The notes beneath the pieces are model-generated. The model saw only the letters and a program-made list of their open reading frames with translations, was not told the origin of the DNA and made no database searches. From an uncultured Verrucomicrobiota bacterium (lineage in GTDB: Bacteria > Verrucomicrobiota > Verrucomicrobiia > Limisphaerales > UBA9464): 43,932 bases of DNA. The stretch spans positions 1-43,932 of the forward strand of contig CAINWP010000021.1 of assembly GCA_903854475.1 (NCBI GenBank), written 5' to 3'. The position numbers and the translations under genes were made by a program. This document shows positions 23,636 through 29,745 of the stretch, piece by piece (the first letter of the stretch is position 1; every line of letters starts with the position of its first letter).

Positions 23636-24070
23636 ATGGAGTGGTTGGCAGGCTCAGGATTAATCTGGATCGAGGGACGGTTTTTGGGGATCGAGTGGCA
23701 TGTCTGGAAGGTGGTGGGATGGGTTGGCAACGCCATTTTTTTCAGCCGCTTTATCGTGCAGTGGTATGCCACCGAGCGCCAACGACGCGTGGTCATTCCG
23801 CAGGCGTTCTGGTGGCTGAGCCTCATGGGCTCATTAATTCTGCTCAGCTACGCTCTCCAGAAACGCGACAGCGTTTTCATTGCTGGACAGGCCTTCTCCT
23901 GGATTCCTTACCTCCGCAACTTGTGGATTCACCGGAGAAACAAATCGATCCAGGTTACCTGCTCTGCCTGCAGTCGCATTAGCCCTTCCGACTACCGACA
24001 TTGTCCGGAATGCGGGAGGACGCTTTCCGGGCCCTCGAACAAAGAATCAGTCCTTACCGTAGGCCATTGA
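23636..24070 (+). CDS. LAB_N-domain membrane protein with C-terminal zinc ribbon
   Basis: 144 residues from the ATG at 23636. The first ~100 residues match the LAB_N domain (lipid-A-disaccharide synthase N-terminal type): VGWVGNAIFFSRFIVQWYAT, then RVVIPQAFWWLSLMGSLILL, then FIAGQAFSWIPYLRNLWIHR. They predict three membrane helices. In other bacteria this domain is stand-alone or fused to LpxB or a glycosyltransferase. The last ~40 residues contain CSAC and CPEC spaced by 13 residues (ISPSDYRHCPECGRTL), a compact zinc-ribbon pattern I do not know from this family. The gene is divergent from rplA, and its 3' end overlaps the convergent kamA gene by 24 nt. A lipid A or undecaprenyl-linked role is only inferred. 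Confidence 0.78.
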   Translation: MEWLAGSGLIWIEGRFLGIEWHVWKVVGWVGNAIFFSRFIVQWYATERQRRVVIPQAFWWLSLMGSLILLSYALQKRDSVFIAGQAFSWIPYLRNLWIHRRNKSIQVTCSACSRISPSDYRHCPECGRTLSGPSNKESVLTVGH

Positions 24071-25294
24071 GGAATCGCAGAGCGGTGCCATTACCGTCGC
24101 CTCCGCTGTCTCCGCTGCCTCCGGGTACTCGAAGACTTTGCCCTCGAAATTTCGAAGAATGATCTTGGTGGCTGATTTGCGCAAAATGTAGCCCGGATTG
24201 ACCGGAATCTTGCCACCGCCACCCGGGGCATCGATGACATACTGCGGGACAGCGTACCCGGTGGTGTGGCCCCGCAGAGAATCCATAATTTCCAGCCCAC
24301 GCGAAACCGTGGACCGCAGGTGGGAACTCCCTGAAATGAGATCGCACTGGTAAATGTAATACGGGCGGACCCGGCACATTAGAAGCTTCTGGACCAGCGC
24401 CTTCATCACCACAGGTTCGTCGTTGACGTGGCGCAGCAACACCGACTGATTGCCCAAGGGGATACCAGCATCGGCTAGTCGCCCCAACGCCTCGCGGACT
24501 TCGGTGGTCAGTTCTCCGGGATGGTTGGTGTGGATGCTAACAAAGAGCGGGTGGAACTTCCGGAGCATGGTACACAATGCCGGTGTGATCCGCTGCGGCA
24601 GAAAAATGGGAATACGGGTGCCGATCCTCAGGAATTCGACGTGGGGAATAGCCCGCAAACGGCCCAGCAAATACTCTAGTTTTTCGTCGCTGAGGAGCAT
24701 TGGATCGCCGCCACTCAACAGCACATCTCGAATCTCGGTATGCTCGGCGATGTAGGCGATTTGGCGGTCGAATTCAGGGTGAAAATCGTAGCCACTGGCG
24801 TTGCTCACCAGTCGGGATCGGGTGCAATAGCGGCAGTAGGCCGCGCATCGGTCGGTCACCAAAAAAAGGACGCGGTCGGGATAGCGATGCACAAGGCCTG
24901 GCACCGGCGAGTGATCGTCTTCGCCGACCGGATCCAATCTTTCCCACGGGGCGGTCGTGGTCTCCTCCAACCGCGGAATAACCTGACGGCGGATGGGGCA
25001 CAACTCATCAGAGGGGTCGAGTAAGTTGAAGTAATACGGGGTGATGGCCATTGCCAGCTTCGACTCCCCAGCCAGAAGCACTCCGGCTCGCTCCTCTCGA
25101 GTCATGCTCGGCAACAAGCGCTCCAACTGATCAATCCGAGTGACGCGATTCTTGAGCTGCCACTTCCAATCGTTCCATTCCGCGTCCGGGACCGATGCCC
25201 AACTCCCCTTCCCTGCGGATCGGAACGTTTTCAAGGTGAGCAATTGTTCCTGATCTTCGGATGAACCTTCTTGAGGGGGGAGGGGTGACTCCAT
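24047..25294 (-). CDS. kamA: Lysine 2,3-aminomutase (radical SAM, PLP)
   Basis: 415 residues, close to the Clostridium enzyme and longer than EpmB. The radical SAM cluster motif is CAAYCRYCTRSR (C-x3-C-x2-C), followed by the SAM-binding LLSGGDPMLLSD. APGGGGKIPVNPGYI contains the Lys that should bind pyridoxal phosphate, with an Asp just before it and another in YQCDLISGSSH, matching the two Asp that recognise the substrate lysine amino group. It would convert L-lysine to L-beta-lysine. No beta-lysine acetyltransferase, 5,6-aminomutase, epmA or efp lies in the window, so the pathway (osmolyte, catabolism or EF-P modification) is open. The 3' end overlaps the LAB_N gene on the opposite strand. 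Confidence 0.9.
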   Translation of the reverse strand: MESPLPPQEGSSEDQEQLLTLKTFRSAGKGSWASVPDAEWNDWKWQLKNRVTRIDQLERLLPSMTREERAGVLLAGESKLAMAITPYYFNLLDPSDELCPIRRQVIPRLEETTTAPWERLDPVGEDDHSPVPGLVHRYPDRVLFLVTDRCAAYCRYCTRSRLVSNASGYDFHPEFDRQIAYIAEHTEIRDVLLSGGDPMLLSDEKLEYLLGRLRAIPHVEFLRIGTRIPIFLPQRITPALCTMLRKFHPLFVSIHTNHPGELTTEVREALGRLADAGIPLGNQSVLLRHVNDEPVVMKALVQKLLMCRVRPYYIYQCDLISGSSHLRSTVSRGLEIMDSLRGHTTGYAVPQYVIDAPGGGGKIPVNPGYILRKSATKIILRNFEGKVFEYPEAAETAEATVMAPLCDSSMAYGKD

Positions 25295-25327
25295 GTATCG
25301 GGCAAACTAGGAGGGGGCTTCGTAGAG

Positions 25328-26218
25328 TCAAGGACACGAACGCGGTCCGAGCGTCAGTCGCCCCCCTGCCTGAAGCCGATGATAGGGCTGCTGAAGGGCC
25401 TGGCATCGGGCTTCAAAGTCCGCGGGCGAGGCCGTATTAAACTCAAACAATTCGTAGTGGCACGGGACCACGGCGCCCATGCCCGATTCATAGGCCAGTG
25501 CGGCAGCCTCATAGCCCCAGAGATTGCCCGCGACTCGGCGCTCGGGAGATCGACCGTTAATGGGCAGAAAGGCGAGATCGATCCGGGCTTCTCTCAAGCA
25601 GTCGACCATGCCTGGAAAGAGGACTGTGTCGCCCGAATGGTAAAGAGTCCACGAACCCACCCGTATGATGAAACCCAGGCAAGACAAGCGACCCATCGGA
25701 TCGCAGTCCAACGCCTCATGGGCCGCGGGTACGGCTTGAATTTGAAAGGGTTCTACGGTCGCTCTTTGCATCGATCCAGTTCCCGCGGGCCGGCCGGGTG
25801 ATGGAGCGTCTAGGCCAATGAGCGACTCGTGTGGCAGGCCAGAGCGGGCCGCGGCCAAACTGCGAATAGCCTCGGGGAAAATTAGCCGCAGGCCCGGGTT
25901 GGAGCGGGCCAACGGGATGAGTGTTTCCGCATCGAGGTGATCGGTGTGGGCGTGAGTGGCCGTGACGAGCCCGACACCCGAAAGGAGGGAGGGATCCACC
26001 ACCCGTTCGGTCATGCGCACATGGGGCTTGTCGGTGGCGGCGTATTTGCTCGTCAGGGAATCGGAGAGGTACGGATCGAGCAGCAAGCGCTTCTCGCGCC
26101 ACTGGACCAAAAATCCGCTCTGCCCCAACCACCACACATGCAGAGACTCGGGCGCCGACTCCCCGGCCCGGTCTAGGTCGGCCAAAAACACTTCATCCTG
26201 CTGGAGAGGCAAGATCAT
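25328..26218 (-). CDS. UlaG-like metallo-beta-lactamase-fold hydrolase
   Basis: 296 residues from the ATG at 26218; a TTG at 26242 would add eight residues. The metal-binding motif THAHTDHLD is present. WLGQSGFLVQWREKRLLLDP and SLTSKYAATDKPHVRMTERV precede it, YHSGDTVLFPG and FLPINGRSPERRVAGNLWGY follow, and PCHYELFEFNT is near the end. This arrangement is typical of the UlaG (L-ascorbate-6-phosphate lactonase) branch. The substrate is unknown, and no ascorbate genes are near. It lies 47 nt downstream of the MetE-like gene on the same strand and is probably the last gene of the SIS-purU-MetE-like operon. Confidence 0.82.
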   Translation of the reverse strand: MILPLQQDEVFLADLDRAGESAPESLHVWWLGQSGFLVQWREKRLLLDPYLSDSLTSKYAATDKPHVRMTERVVDPSLLSGVGLVTATHAHTDHLDAETLIPLARSNPGLRLIFPEAIRSLAAARSGLPHESLIGLDAPSPGRPAGTGSMQRATVEPFQIQAVPAAHEALDCDPMGRLSCLGFIIRVGSWTLYHSGDTVLFPGMVDCLREARIDLAFLPINGRSPERRVAGNLWGYEAAALAYESGMGAVVPCHYELFEFNTASPADFEARCQALQQPYHRLQAGGRLTLGPRSCP

Positions 26219-26265
26219 CGCAGAAACCGATATTGAGGACAAAAATTGGGGTCAATATCCACGAT

Positions 26266-27315
26266 TCAGAGAGTTTTACGCACCAACGTCGCACCAGCAC
26301 ACAGCGCCTGCAACTTGCGTCGCGCCGCCCAACGGGCCGTCTGACTCAGTCCGCAATCCGGAGCCAAAACCAACCGGTCTGCCGGCACATATTCTAGGCA
26401 TCGACGCACGCGGGAGGCGATGTCCTCCGGCGTCTCGATGTAGTAACTCTTCACGTCGACAATGCCGACGGCCACGTCGCGATGCCGCGCCACCTGCGCG
26501 ATCAACTCCAGTTCCGAGAACTCCCGACTGGCCATCTCCACGTGCATCTCATCGCAGTGCATGTCGAGAAAGGCTGGAAACAACGGTGCTATCTGCCGCG
26601 GTCCGATGGCCCGGGCCTTGTAGTTGCCGAAACAGAGGTGCATGCAAACCCGAGTCTTGCCGATGACCGTTTCCACCGTCCGGTTGAAGAGATCTACAAA
26701 CCGGCGGACCTCTTCCTTGTAGCCATAGCAACTCATCGAAGGCTCATCGACGCTGATCTCGCGACATCCCGCGGCGACCAACGCCTCCAATTCTTGGCGT
26801 ACCAGGGGCAGGAGAGCTTCAGTCAGGGCCCAACGGTCCGGGTAGCCCAAATCGGCGTTAGGCAAGAGGCGACCGGACAGCGTGTAGGGACCGGGAATCG
26901 AGGCTTTGAGCGTCACCCGACCGGCCGCACCCAGTTCGCGGGAGACGGTCTCCAGGCGACGGTATTCCTCGACGGCTCCCAGTCCGCGAGGGGCCTGCAA
27001 TGGAGCCACTACCGCATGGCGTCCCCGTTGGTCATGAGCTGGCGGGCCCCACCGACGGGGCGAGGCTGACTCCAGATCGATTCCCTGGAGATAGCCGTAG
27101 AAGCTGAGATTGAAGTCTAACCGGCTTTGTTCGCCATCGGTGATGACATCCAATCCCGCAGCCAACTGATCCTTCACAGCACAAGTGACCGCATCGGATT
27201 GCAGTTCGCTCCGGTCCTCCGAACCAAAGCGGTCCAGATGTTGCGAGGCATGCTCCAACCAAGCCGGAAACGGATAACTGCCGATGACCGAAGTTCGCAG
27301 TGGGCACTGATTCAT
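26266..27315 (-). CDS. Core-MetE-like (cobalamin-independent methionine synthase family) methyltransferase
   Basis: 349 residues corresponding only to the C-terminal catalytic barrel of MetE; the N-terminal half of classical MetE (about 750 residues) is absent. Conserved parts are the start (TSVIGSYPFP), VITDGEQSRLDF, LKASIPGPYTLSG, CREISVDEPSM, HLCFGNY with the zinc-ligand His and Cys, DEMHVEMASREFSEL with the likely Glu ligand, and LAPDCGLSQ with the final Cys ligand. Core-MetE proteins transfer methyl groups to thiols, in some organisms from methylcobamide or methyl-corrinoid protein rather than methyltetrahydrofolate. It lies 51 nt downstream of purU, and metF is 11.5 kb away. Whether it makes methionine here is unknown. 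Confidence 0.85.
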   Translation of the reverse strand: MNQCPLRTSVIGSYPFPAWLEHASQHLDRFGSEDRSELQSDAVTCAVKDQLAAGLDVITDGEQSRLDFNLSFYGYLQGIDLESASPRRWGPPAHDQRGRHAVVAPLQAPRGLGAVEEYRRLETVSRELGAAGRVTLKASIPGPYTLSGRLLPNADLGYPDRWALTEALLPLVRQELEALVAAGCREISVDEPSMSCYGYKEEVRRFVDLFNRTVETVIGKTRVCMHLCFGNYKARAIGPRQIAPLFPAFLDMHCDEMHVEMASREFSELELIAQVARHRDVAVGIVDVKSYYIETPEDIASRVRRCLEYVPADRLVLAPDCGLSQTARWAARRKLQALCAGATLVRKTL

Positions 27316-27366
27316 AAGGTGGAGAAAGACACCGTAAAAAAGGAAAACTCTCGCAACCGATACGGC

Positions 27367-28206
27367 TCAGTCGAAAATCACTGTCCGGTTGCCCGCCAAA
27401 AATACGCGGTCTTCAAAGACCAATCGGAGCGCCTGGGCCAAAGCGAATTGCTCGACATCGCGACCGGCTCGGACGAGATCCGCGGCGGCGTGGGTATGGT
27501 CCACAGGGATCACCTGCTGGACCAAAATAGGACCCGCATCCAGGTCATCGGTCACCAGATGAGCCGTGGCCCCAATGACCTTCACCCCACGCTGGAAGGC
27601 CTGATGGTAGGGCTTGGCTCCCACAAAGGCCGGGAGGAAGGAATGGTGGATGTTGATAATCCGCGACGGGTATTGGCCCACGAAATCGGGCGACAACACT
27701 CGCATGTATTTGGCCAAGACGAGGAACTCAGGCTGAATTTCGTGGAGAATGCACCGAACGGCCGCCTCGTGGGCCGCACGTTCCAACCCCTCGGCAGGAA
27801 CATGATGGAAAGGCACCTCAAACTTGCGAACTAGGTCGCCCAGCACGGCATGGTTGCTAATCACGGCCTCGATCCGAGCATTGATGCCTCCGAATTGATG
27901 GCGTATGAGCAAATCTCCCAGGCAGTGGTGTTCGCGGGAGGCTAAAACCACGATCCGCTTAGGCCCCGGATGCGCCAAGCGGACCTGTGCACCGGTCGGT
28001 AAACTGGACAGGGTTTCCGCCACGAGCTGTTGCCCAGTGGCGGAACCCTCAGGACCGTCGAACTCGGTGCGCATGTAGAAATGCCCCGACGCGGCGTCTA
28101 CGAACTCCTGATTACCAACGACGTTACAACCATGGCGGAGCAGCACACCACTGATGGCGTGCACCAAGCCCCGTTGATCCGGGCACTCGACCAGAAGGAC
28201 CGCCAT
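27367..28206 (-). CDS. purU: Formyltetrahydrofolate deformylase
   Basis: 279 residues, the normal length. An N-terminal ACT domain (VECPDQRGLVHAISGVLLRH) is followed by a formyltransferase-fold catalytic domain with the expected catalytic residues in ISNHAVLGD (Asn), INIHHSFLPAFVGAKPYHQA (His) and ATAHLVTDDLDAGPILVQQ (Asp). It hydrolyses 10-formyltetrahydrofolate to formate and tetrahydrofolate, balancing one-carbon pools. It lies 12 nt downstream of the SIS gene and 51 nt upstream of the MetE-like gene, giving a probable four-gene operon. Confidence 0.93.
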   Translation of the reverse strand: MAVLLVECPDQRGLVHAISGVLLRHGCNVVGNQEFVDAASGHFYMRTEFDGPEGSATGQQLVAETLSSLPTGAQVRLAHPGPKRIVVLASREHHCLGDLLIRHQFGGINARIEAVISNHAVLGDLVRKFEVPFHHVPAEGLERAAHEAAVRCILHEIQPEFLVLAKYMRVLSPDFVGQYPSRIINIHHSFLPAFVGAKPYHQAFQRGVKVIGATAHLVTDDLDAGPILVQQVIPVDHTHAAADLVRAGRDVEQFALAQALRLVFEDRVFLAGNRTVIFD

Positions 28207-28218
28207 GGTTGAATGGTT

Positions 28219-29745
28219 TTAGTTCCGACGACCACGCCCACCTCGGCGATTGCCATTGTCGCGGCCACGATCTTCACGTCCGCGGCGCTCGCCACCCTCC
28301 GAACGGTCCGAACGGGGGGCAGGAGCCGGAGCTTGACCGTTCTCGCGCAACCAGAGACGGCGTTCAATGTCATCCATCCGGTCCCAATTGGCCGGCTTGG
28401 GCACCTCGACGGGAGCGCCCCCTCCGGAGGAGGACTCAGGGGCCGACTCAGCCTGGGGCTGCGGGGCGCGCTGAGGACGCTCCGAAGGCTCCTCCATGCG
28501 ACGAGGGGCACGACCAGCCTCGCTGCGTTCGCCACCACGGTCAGGACGTTCACTCCGCTCGCCAGTGCGACCACGGGTTTCTTCACGCGGCGCGCGCTCC
28601 TCGCGCTGCGGACGCTCAACCCGCGGTTCACGGACCTCACGAACTTCACGAACCTCGCGAACTTCGCGCGGCACTGGGATCTCGCGAGGCACTGCACTCT
28701 CACGCGGAGCAACACTCTCACGGGCTCCGCGCGGATCGCGATCGCCACCTCGGCCCCGGCCGCCGTCACGGCCTCCAGAGCGCTCTCCACGGTCATCGCG
28801 AGCGCGTTCGGGACCTCGTTCCTGACCCCGATCATCACGCGGACGCTCTTCTGTACGCTCCGGTCGAGCATCACGGCGCGGTCGGGCTGCCGGGGCTTCG
28901 GCCGGGGCTTCACCGATGTGGGCATACAGCTTGGCTAAGCGGCGAGCGTGCTCGTCGTAGGCCGATTCAAACAACTGGGAGGCCTTCTCATTACCCACCA
29001 GCGCGGGCGCCGTGAGCACCGTCGGAGGCTTTCCAGCCTCGGTGAGCAGCGCGGCAACCTCGACCTTGATGGCATTAATGAGCATGCACCCGCCGATGGT
29101 GGAGCCGGGACCCACGGGGGTTTCGAGACCAGGAATTTCGATCATGGCGTCACCCGCCGGAGCACCCGTGTCGAGAACGACGTCGGCAAAGTCCTGCAGC
29201 TTGCGGCCATCGCGGCGCTGGCTGCGACTGGCCTCGCTATGGGCCTTGGAGATGATGGCTACCACCTTCACGCCACGGCGCTTGAACTCCTCCGCCATTT
29301 CGATCGGCACCAAATTGCATCCCGACGAGGAGGCCACCAGGGCGGTATCCTTAGGGGAAAGGTCGTAGTTGCGGAGGATGCGGGCGGCCAAGCCGTGGAC
29401 GTTCTCCAAGAACATCGCCTGCCGCTGTCCATTGGCACCCACCACGAGGTTGTGGAAGCTTAGGGAGAGCTCCACGATGGGGTTAAACCCGGGGAACGAT
29501 CCGTAGCGGGGCCACATTTCCTCAACGAGGATGCGGCTATGCCCGGAGCCAAAACAATGCACCATTCGGCCGGCCAAGATGGTCTCGGCAAAGAGGCTCG
29601 CGGCCTCCGCGATGGTCTCCTCTTGGGCGACGGCCGTGTCCAGAAGACTGCGGCACTGGTCAAGATAGTCAGCGATCACGGAAGGGAGGCTATCAGAAAC
29701 TCCCACCAGAAGTGGATGCCAAAGATTGACCTTCGATCCATTCAT
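28219..29745 (-). CDS. SIS-domain sugar isomerase-like protein with long Arg-rich C-terminal tail
   Basis: 508 residues. Residues 1-280 form a phosphosugar-binding SIS domain of the UPF0309 type: HCFGSGHSRILVEEMWPRYG, ALVASSSGCNLVPIEMAEEF, KVVAIISKAHSEASRSQRRD and the late VGPGSTIGGCMLINAIKVEV. Residues from about 285 are a low-complexity, mostly Arg/Glu/Asp/Gly/Pro tail (RPRRDARPERTEERPRDD, then PREVREVREVREVREPRV, ending GREDRGRDNGNRRGGRGRRN). One ordered-looking segment, WDRMDDIERRLWLREN, interrupts it near residues 460-475. Tails like this are typical of RNA-associated or condensate-forming proteins and are unexpected on a sugar-phosphate isomerase. The gene is first in the run purU, MetE-like, UlaG-like, and diverges from the DUF1549/DUF1553 gene 56 nt away. 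The substrate is unknown. Confidence 0.85.
   Translation of the reverse strand: MNGSKVNLWHPLLVGVSDSLPSVIADYLDQCRSLLDTAVAQEETIAEAASLFAETILAGRMVHCFGSGHSRILVEEMWPRYGSFPGFNPIVELSLSFHNLVVGANGQRQAMFLENVHGLAARILRNYDLSPKDTALVASSSGCNLVPIEMAEEFKRRGVKVVAIISKAHSEASRSQRRDGRKLQDFADVVLDTGAPAGDAMIEIPGLETPVGPGSTIGGCMLINAIKVEVAALLTEAGKPPTVLTAPALVGNEKASQLFESAYDEHARRLAKLYAHIGEAPAEAPAARPRRDARPERTEERPRDDRGQERGPERARDDRGERSGGRDGGRGRGGDRDPRGARESVAPRESAVPREIPVPREVREVREVREVREPRVERPQREERAPREETRGRTGERSERPDRGGERSEAGRAPRRMEEPSERPQRAPQPQAESAPESSSGGGAPVEVPKPANWDRMDDIERRLWLRENGQAPAPAPRSDRSEGGERRGREDRGRDNGNRRGGRGRRN
28627..28675. repeat. 9-nt tandem repeat coding for Val-Arg-Glu units
   Basis: Within the SIS tail, imperfect tandem 9-mers of the type cgaacttca/cgaacctcg encode four consecutive Val-Arg-Glu triplets. 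Copy-number change would keep the reading frame, so the tail could vary in length. Confidence 0.6.

Follow-up and report, generated by a model that had tools for sequence, protein, structure and literature searches.

What a sugar-phosphate enzyme would do with a long arginine-rich tail is the question raised by one gene of the DNA analysed here, a stretch of 43,932 nucleotides from an uncultured Verrucomicrobiota bacterium that is called the window below. The preliminary description of this DNA had proposed that the tail may bind RNA or drive condensation, and so may couple metabolism to RNA or ribosomes.

One reading frame encodes domain and tail

Analysis of the reverse strand revealed a single open frame at positions 28219-29745 (508 codons from the first ATG, plus the stop), in which SIS_2 and PRK02947 profile matches are followed by a tail of about 230 residues; the preliminary description had the two parts joined in frame without a break, and they are. 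Residues are numbered throughout from the ATG at 29745. Judging from the orthologues, the true start is probably a GTG at 29679, giving a gene of 28219-29679 and a protein of 486 residues: this position holds GTG in 22 of the 22 orthologues viewed, and an in-frame stop lies a few codons 5′ of it in four orthologues (L022, L023, L027 and L031). The 22 residues that the ATG frame has ahead of this GTG are thus probably leader. Some 40 nt 5′ of the GTG, at 29719-29727, AATCTTTGG keeps even its third codon positions in 15 of 17 members of the genus and is replaced by AATCTTTCG in the remaining two; the unchanged third positions suggest a non-coding element, for example part of a promoter.

A search of 50 genomes of the family, with its loci read, showed the fusion in each of the 17 genomes in which the window's genus has the complete gene. 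The genus comprises 19 genomes including the window's own, and in the other two (G025 and G029) the contig ends within the SIS gene. Codon comparison of 13 chosen pairs of orthologues put dN/dS at 0.01-0.09 in the SIS domain (finite in 11 pairs) and at 0.11-0.46 in the tail ahead of its conserved island (finite in 12 of the 13), the tail values being approximate owing to the uncertain alignment of low-complexity sequence. By these values the tail frame is real and the tail is under purifying selection that is weaker than on the domain. An assembly error, which the preliminary description had named as a way for its reading to fail, or a frame fusion is ruled out, since 17 different genomes carry the fusion and codon-level selection continues through the tail. 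Several open reading frames in other frames or antisense across the tail are regarded as a by-product of GC-rich arginine codons.

The domain belongs to the UPF0309 family

The SIS_2/PRK02947 (UPF0309) phosphosugar domain occupies residues 23-270 (28936-29679, reverse strand), as delimited by profile and fold matches. Pfam SIS_2 matched residues 26-166 (E 5e-34), and the whole-domain NCBIfam profile PRK02947 (NF002805) matched residues 23-270 with E 2.5e-80 and 269.2 bits, above its curated cut-off of 135, which places the protein in the PRK02947/UPF0309 family. An AlphaFold2 model built on a 68-row alignment gave ten-residue mean pLDDT values of 80-98 over the domain, except at about residues 71-100 (47-75); it supersedes an earlier model from a 17-row alignment, in which the SIS domain was poor. 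Fold comparison of the model confirmed the SIS alpha/beta fold, with Z 30.2 for 3cvj and Z 29.5 for 9eol. The first of these, BH3325 of Bacillus halodurans, a putative phosphoheptose isomerase, is the closest solved relative (sequence E 7e-36), and its chain of 243 residues has no tail.

The second is NagS (SCO4393; PDB 9eol, 9f7o and 9f7v), the GlcNAc-6-phosphate dehydratase of Streptomyces and a member of UPF0309, which has the same fold at 2.2 Å over 242 residues. According to the accessible part of its report (PMC12680351), NagS activity is lost without H53, R64, E94 or D179. By an alignment numbered by hand, these correspond to identical residues here, H69, R80, E114 and D199, in columns that are invariant in the 68 alignment rows, and the phosphate-binding S54, S119 and S121 of NagS likewise align with identical residues. 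S91 and N228, also important for NagS catalysis (PMC12680351), are not kept, Met 111 and Ala 248 standing in their places by the same hand numbering. Since the four essential residues and the phosphate-binding residues are kept, the window protein is very likely an active phosphosugar enzyme. A NagS function is not claimed, because the two catalytic residues, the identity and the synteny all differ: NagS is recognised by at least 58.7% identity together with dmdR1 synteny, and homologues of 25.7-35.7% identity had absent or negligible NagS activity (PMC12680351, same part), whereas the domain studied here is 26-28% identical to NagS and its gene adjoins purU, not dmdR1. NagS is, moreover, a chain of 251 residues without such a tail. 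The window's own genome holds a second SIS paralogue, 33% identical and tail-less (L002, 1504-2238).

The tail is charge-balanced and predicted to be disordered

The tail covers residues 279-508 (28222-28911, reverse strand; ~230 residues). Its 58 R are nearly balanced by 51 acidic residues (36 E and 15 D), and it further contains 28 G, 27 P, 21 A and a single K, with f+ 0.257, f- 0.222, FCR 0.48 and NCPR +0.035 per residue. Of the arginine dominance put forward in the preliminary description, the richness in arginine therefore stands and simple dominance does not. The charges of the window tail are mixed more tightly than in 500 of 500 shuffles. Among the orthologues, the charge-mixing value lay under the shuffled mean in 17 of 17, with at most 1 of 300 shuffles lower for 12 of these tails and 8 to 34 lower for the other five. 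Exactly one lysine occurs in every one of the 17 tails, and it is the lysine of the island. High arginine together with acidic residues, near-neutral and mixed, is the composition of an arginine-rich mixed-charge domain (R-MCD); the clearly cationic character of an RGG-type tail is confined to the last ~30 residues.

These last 30 residues carry a net charge of +4 to +8 in 17 of 17 orthologues (in the window, +5 over 30 residues and +6 over 31). The protein closes with the basic end RRGGRGRRN (28222-28248, reverse strand, placed by orthologue comparison) and ends like RRGGRGRR are present in most of the 17 orthologues, in agreement with the RGG-like end already noticed; 12 RG and three RGG were counted among 227 tail residues. 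Binding of RNA by the bulk of the tail is argued against by its charge balance and good mixing, as it is not a polycation; nucleic-acid binding is plausible for the basic last ~30 residues alone.

Almost the whole tail had pLDDT under 50 in the 68-row model, as anticipated in the preliminary description, which had called it disordered. The low-complexity part holds short tandem repeats, and tail length varies among orthologues with the composition kept. A search of the window's own genome with the tail sequence returned only the SIS-tail gene at E ≤ 1, low-complexity filtering possibly hiding others, and a DNA pattern for R[DE]xR[DE]xR[DE] gave six matches in this genome (three overlapping in the tail, three single elsewhere) against one for the control. 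Its one RNase E/G match lacks any Arg-rich stretch. Among 20 loci read, one DEAD-box protein of this genome (L160) ends in an RG/G-rich segment, a type of tail more commonly linked to RNA. Our literature search found no report on an Arg-rich disordered C-terminal tail of a SIS or sugar isomerase domain protein in Verrucomicrobiota.

A conserved helical island lies near the end of the tail

The island, KPANWDRMDDIERRLWLRENG, comprises 21 residues (450-470; 28336-28398, reverse strand) with the consensus KPxNWxxMDDIERRxWxRxN. All 17 orthologues share its K, P, N, W, M, D, D, I, E, R, R, W, R and N without exception, and all 21 residues are identical in 12 of the 17 genomes. The 68-row model predicts a helix at model residues 440-449 (residues 459-468), with pLDDT 83-86 over the island, and the 17-row model gave the same helix, which bears out the one helical island of the preliminary description. 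Non-synonymous changes in the island numbered zero in eight of eight pairs of the closest subclade, synonymous changes 0-12, with 9-107 in the preceding tail; in five wider pairs the island showed 1-12 non-synonymous changes. Its hydrophobic moment was reached or exceeded by 575, 1046 and 574 of 2000 shuffles (L001, L015 and L014, respectively), and being no higher than in its own shuffles it does not support the word amphipathic.

Among the genomes searched, the island is restricted to the window's genus. Its coding pattern was found once each in 17 of 50 genomes of the family, all from this genus (17 of its 19), and did not occur in the family's other genera (31 genomes); the reversed control gave no match. 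An island profile run against 293 genomes of the order returned 11 strong matches (E 7e-21 or better), every one from the genus, and six weak ones (E 1e-4 to 0.01), about three being expected at that cut-off. Against 387 genomes of the phylum it returned the window's own genome and one weak match (E 4e-4); this sample probably held no further member of the genus, none other having matched. Two of the four weak order matches that were read have DIGRRLWLRE in common, a stretch that we take to resemble the first helix of class II aldolase. The other two were considered as relatives of the island and rejected, as they look like chance or Arg-rich composition. No SIS domain lies beside any of the four in the stretches read.

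Most relatives lack a tail

The carriers of the tailed enzyme are a group of lake bacteria. Among the best 80 loci of named public genomes, 218 of which encode a relative, 16 encode an island tail, seven another tail (27-151 residues) and 57 at most 17 residues past the domain. Across the order, 55 of the 116 genomes searched gave an orthologue, and in the 29 loci read from it besides that of the window no tail longer than ~10 residues was seen, three ends being judged by eye. Several metagenome-assembled genomes with related genes (L068, L073, L076, L079, L100 and others) are titled Akkermansia muciniphila or Klebsiella pneumoniae; these titles are probably wrong, the genes grouping with sequences titled as lake or pond Verrucomicrobiota.

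A second genus of the family (L024, L145-L149 and L019) bears Arg-rich tails of 32-189 residues in seven of nine genomes, the orthologue being not found or cut by a contig end in the other two. These tails have a single Trp in a W-x-P context (WSPG, WRPS, WMPA or WEPG), a positive end and no island. A third genus has a basic tail of 27 residues in three of three genomes. The origin of the tails was analysed in a tree of 67 rows out of 73 named, the other six having yielded no row, with 10 of the 17 island rows (L002, L153 and the long-branch rows L115, L119, L130 and L135 were left out beforehand). Island, Trp-motif and short basic tails each formed one clade (100/99, 97/85 and 100/100, respectively) and parsimony gave three changes for the tail types, yet the AU test did not reject a single origin, either for two groups (p 0.383) or for all three (p 0.335), the bootstrap being not quite settled. 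The label 'Wtail204' that L153 bore in an earlier 86-row tree proved an artefact, its SIS end lying in another frame.

The neighbouring genes look metabolic

Regarding the neighbourhood, five genes on the reverse strand (SIS, PurU, MetE-like, MBL and KamA-like; 24047-29745) form a run that is kept in relatives of the genus. PurU, a formyltetrahydrofolate deformylase (27367-28206), lies 12 bp downstream of the SIS-tail gene and is probably co-transcribed with it. It is followed by a MetE-like protein with the fold of cobalamin-independent methionine synthase (26266-27315), which does not reach the cut-offs of the methionine synthase equivalogs, by a metallo-beta-lactamase-fold hydrolase (MBL; 25328-26242) and by a KamA-family radical SAM protein (24047-25294). 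A PSD1/PSCyt protein is encoded on the other side of the SIS-tail gene. That a deformylase and a MetE-like protein stand together with a sugar-phosphate enzyme suggests that the pathway may free a one-carbon unit from a sugar derivative. By hand count over 80 loci, some of them cut by contig ends, a MetE-like gene is present in 57 and PurU in 25.

In several tail-less orthologues (among them L083, L084, L089, L095 and L101), the PurU or MetE-like gene starts within ~100 bp of the SIS end. The preliminary description had allowed for relatives that encode domain and tail as separate genes. No separate tail gene was seen, as far as this close spacing and a search for the island pattern, which is absent from the 31 genomes of other genera, can show it.

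A Larkinella locus (Bacteroidota, L085) places a ROK kinase, a xylose-isomerase-like protein, an FAD oxidoreductase and a phosphotriesterase-family protein beside its SIS gene, a context that suggests sugar metabolism rather than RNA; the other loci scanned had unrelated upstream neighbours. SIS, MetE-like and MBL genes are found in Larkinella (L085, 5097-12036; L106, L109, L118 and L134). Horizontal transfer is suggested, since these SIS domains are 72-75% identical to that of the window and stand near those of Verrucomicrobiota in the tree.

A proposed role for the tail

We propose, with a probability of about 0.5, that the genus has added to a UPF0309/PRK02947 (NagS-like) SIS phosphosugar enzyme a tail that tethers and docks it. 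The ~170 disordered, charge-balanced Arg/Glu/Asp/Gly/Pro residues would act as a soluble flexible linker, the helix-forming motif near the tail end would dock on one specific partner, and the basic RRGGRGRR end may add weak contacts with a polyanion or an acidic surface. Because NagS is a dimer whose active sites lie where the subunits meet (PMC12680351, accessible part), two tails per particle would be expected; a SIS dimer of this kind would present two docking motifs and could cross-link the enzyme or concentrate it on an assembly. As the island has no Pfam match and its best match among PDB sequences is at E 0.74, it is from conservation alone that we infer docking. Against this proposal, the island does change outside the closest subclade, the same enzyme is tail-less in most relatives and the hydrophobic moment does not exceed that of shuffles. 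Whether the genus has in this way turned a sugar-phosphate enzyme into a targeted, multivalent assembly component, with a 21-residue docking motif that would be new and a parallel Trp-motif version in the second genus, is rather doubtful.

Coupling to RNA, ribosomes or the nucleoid, in which the Arg-rich tail would bind RNA, DNA or the ribosomal surface and bring the enzyme there, draws on the 12 RG and three RGG, on the RRGGRGRR-like ends of most orthologues, on the net positive last 30 residues of all 17 and on the positive ends of shorter tails in two other genera. It is possible but not favoured over docking through the island, and we consider it unlikely: the tail has a net charge of +0.035 per residue and its acidic and basic residues are well mixed; a well-mixed, alternating Arg/Asp peptide did not phase-separate and had lost its affinity for neighbouring molecules, while a blocky one formed droplets that took up RNA (PMC9324279, accessible part); the neighbouring genes look metabolic, and the genome's own RNase E/G match is without such a tail. 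The same alternating peptides, which did not phase-separate alone, make it improbable that an R-MCD tail drives the enzyme to associate with itself or to enter a bacterial condensate, so bringing a metabolic pathway together while the island tunes specificity. The R-MCDs described there act in animal-cell nuclei, and the accessible literature on bacterial mixed-charge polyampholytes shows no such tail. An FCR of 0.48, 58 Arg to one Lys and a single Lys in each of the 17 tails would suit condensation, as would the multivalency of a dimeric core, and the BR-bodies of RNase E, as far as the accessible literature describes them, are bacterial condensates built on a disordered tail.

The tail might also work within the enzyme, either with the tail or island folding back on the SIS domain of its own or the partner subunit and gating substrate entry, or as an entropic solubility brush with no outside partner. 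Short tandem repeats, variable length at constant composition and a strictly conserved island adjoining a strictly conserved enzyme are consistent with such internal regulation, which we judge distinctly unlikely; most of the tail was modelled without order, weak evidence against it since the model gave no confidence for placing the island relative to the domain. That loss of a stop codon or growth of repeats simply added a harmless, nearly neutral extension would account for the fast divergence, the repeats and the very different tail lengths in the second genus. It is highly improbable and appears largely refuted by the selection results, given the purifying selection on the tail, an island that hardly changes within the close subclade and the retention of the tail in every genus genome with a complete gene.

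If docking through the island is correct, a targeted multivalent enzyme would amount to a bacterial targeting system of R-MCD type for metabolism, and recruitment to an assembly would provide a bacterial example in which charge-balanced Arg tails organise metabolism. The island, a 21-residue peptide identical in 12 genomes, is a concrete bait, and the occurrence of the same enzyme with and without the tail in relatives is a natural experiment on what the tail adds.

Relation to known systems

Docking motifs on disordered tails are familiar from RNA-processing and cell-division proteins; to our knowledge such tails are unusual on small-molecule enzymes. Within the SIS fold, DiaA is a protein that acts through protein contacts. 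Proteins of the DiaA/GmhA type (2yva and 4u6n) have this fold in common with the window protein at Z 17.4-17.8, far below the values for NagS and 3cvj, but are shorter chains of 193 residues with no tail.

In composition, the closest likeness is to the R-MCDs of SNRNP70 and NELFE, which are likewise rich in arginine and acidic residues and near-neutral, as described in the accessible part of PMC9324279. The window tail differs from them in having more Glu than Asp and many Gly and Pro, in belonging to a bacterial metabolic enzyme and in embedding a conserved helix motif. In architecture, it recalls the C-terminal region of RNase E in gamma-proteobacteria (PMC4435900, accessible part), where a folded enzyme also bears a long disordered end with short conserved microdomains for partner docking. 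RNase E is an RNA-degrading enzyme, unlike the window protein, and the likeness is one of architecture, with no sequence relation claimed.
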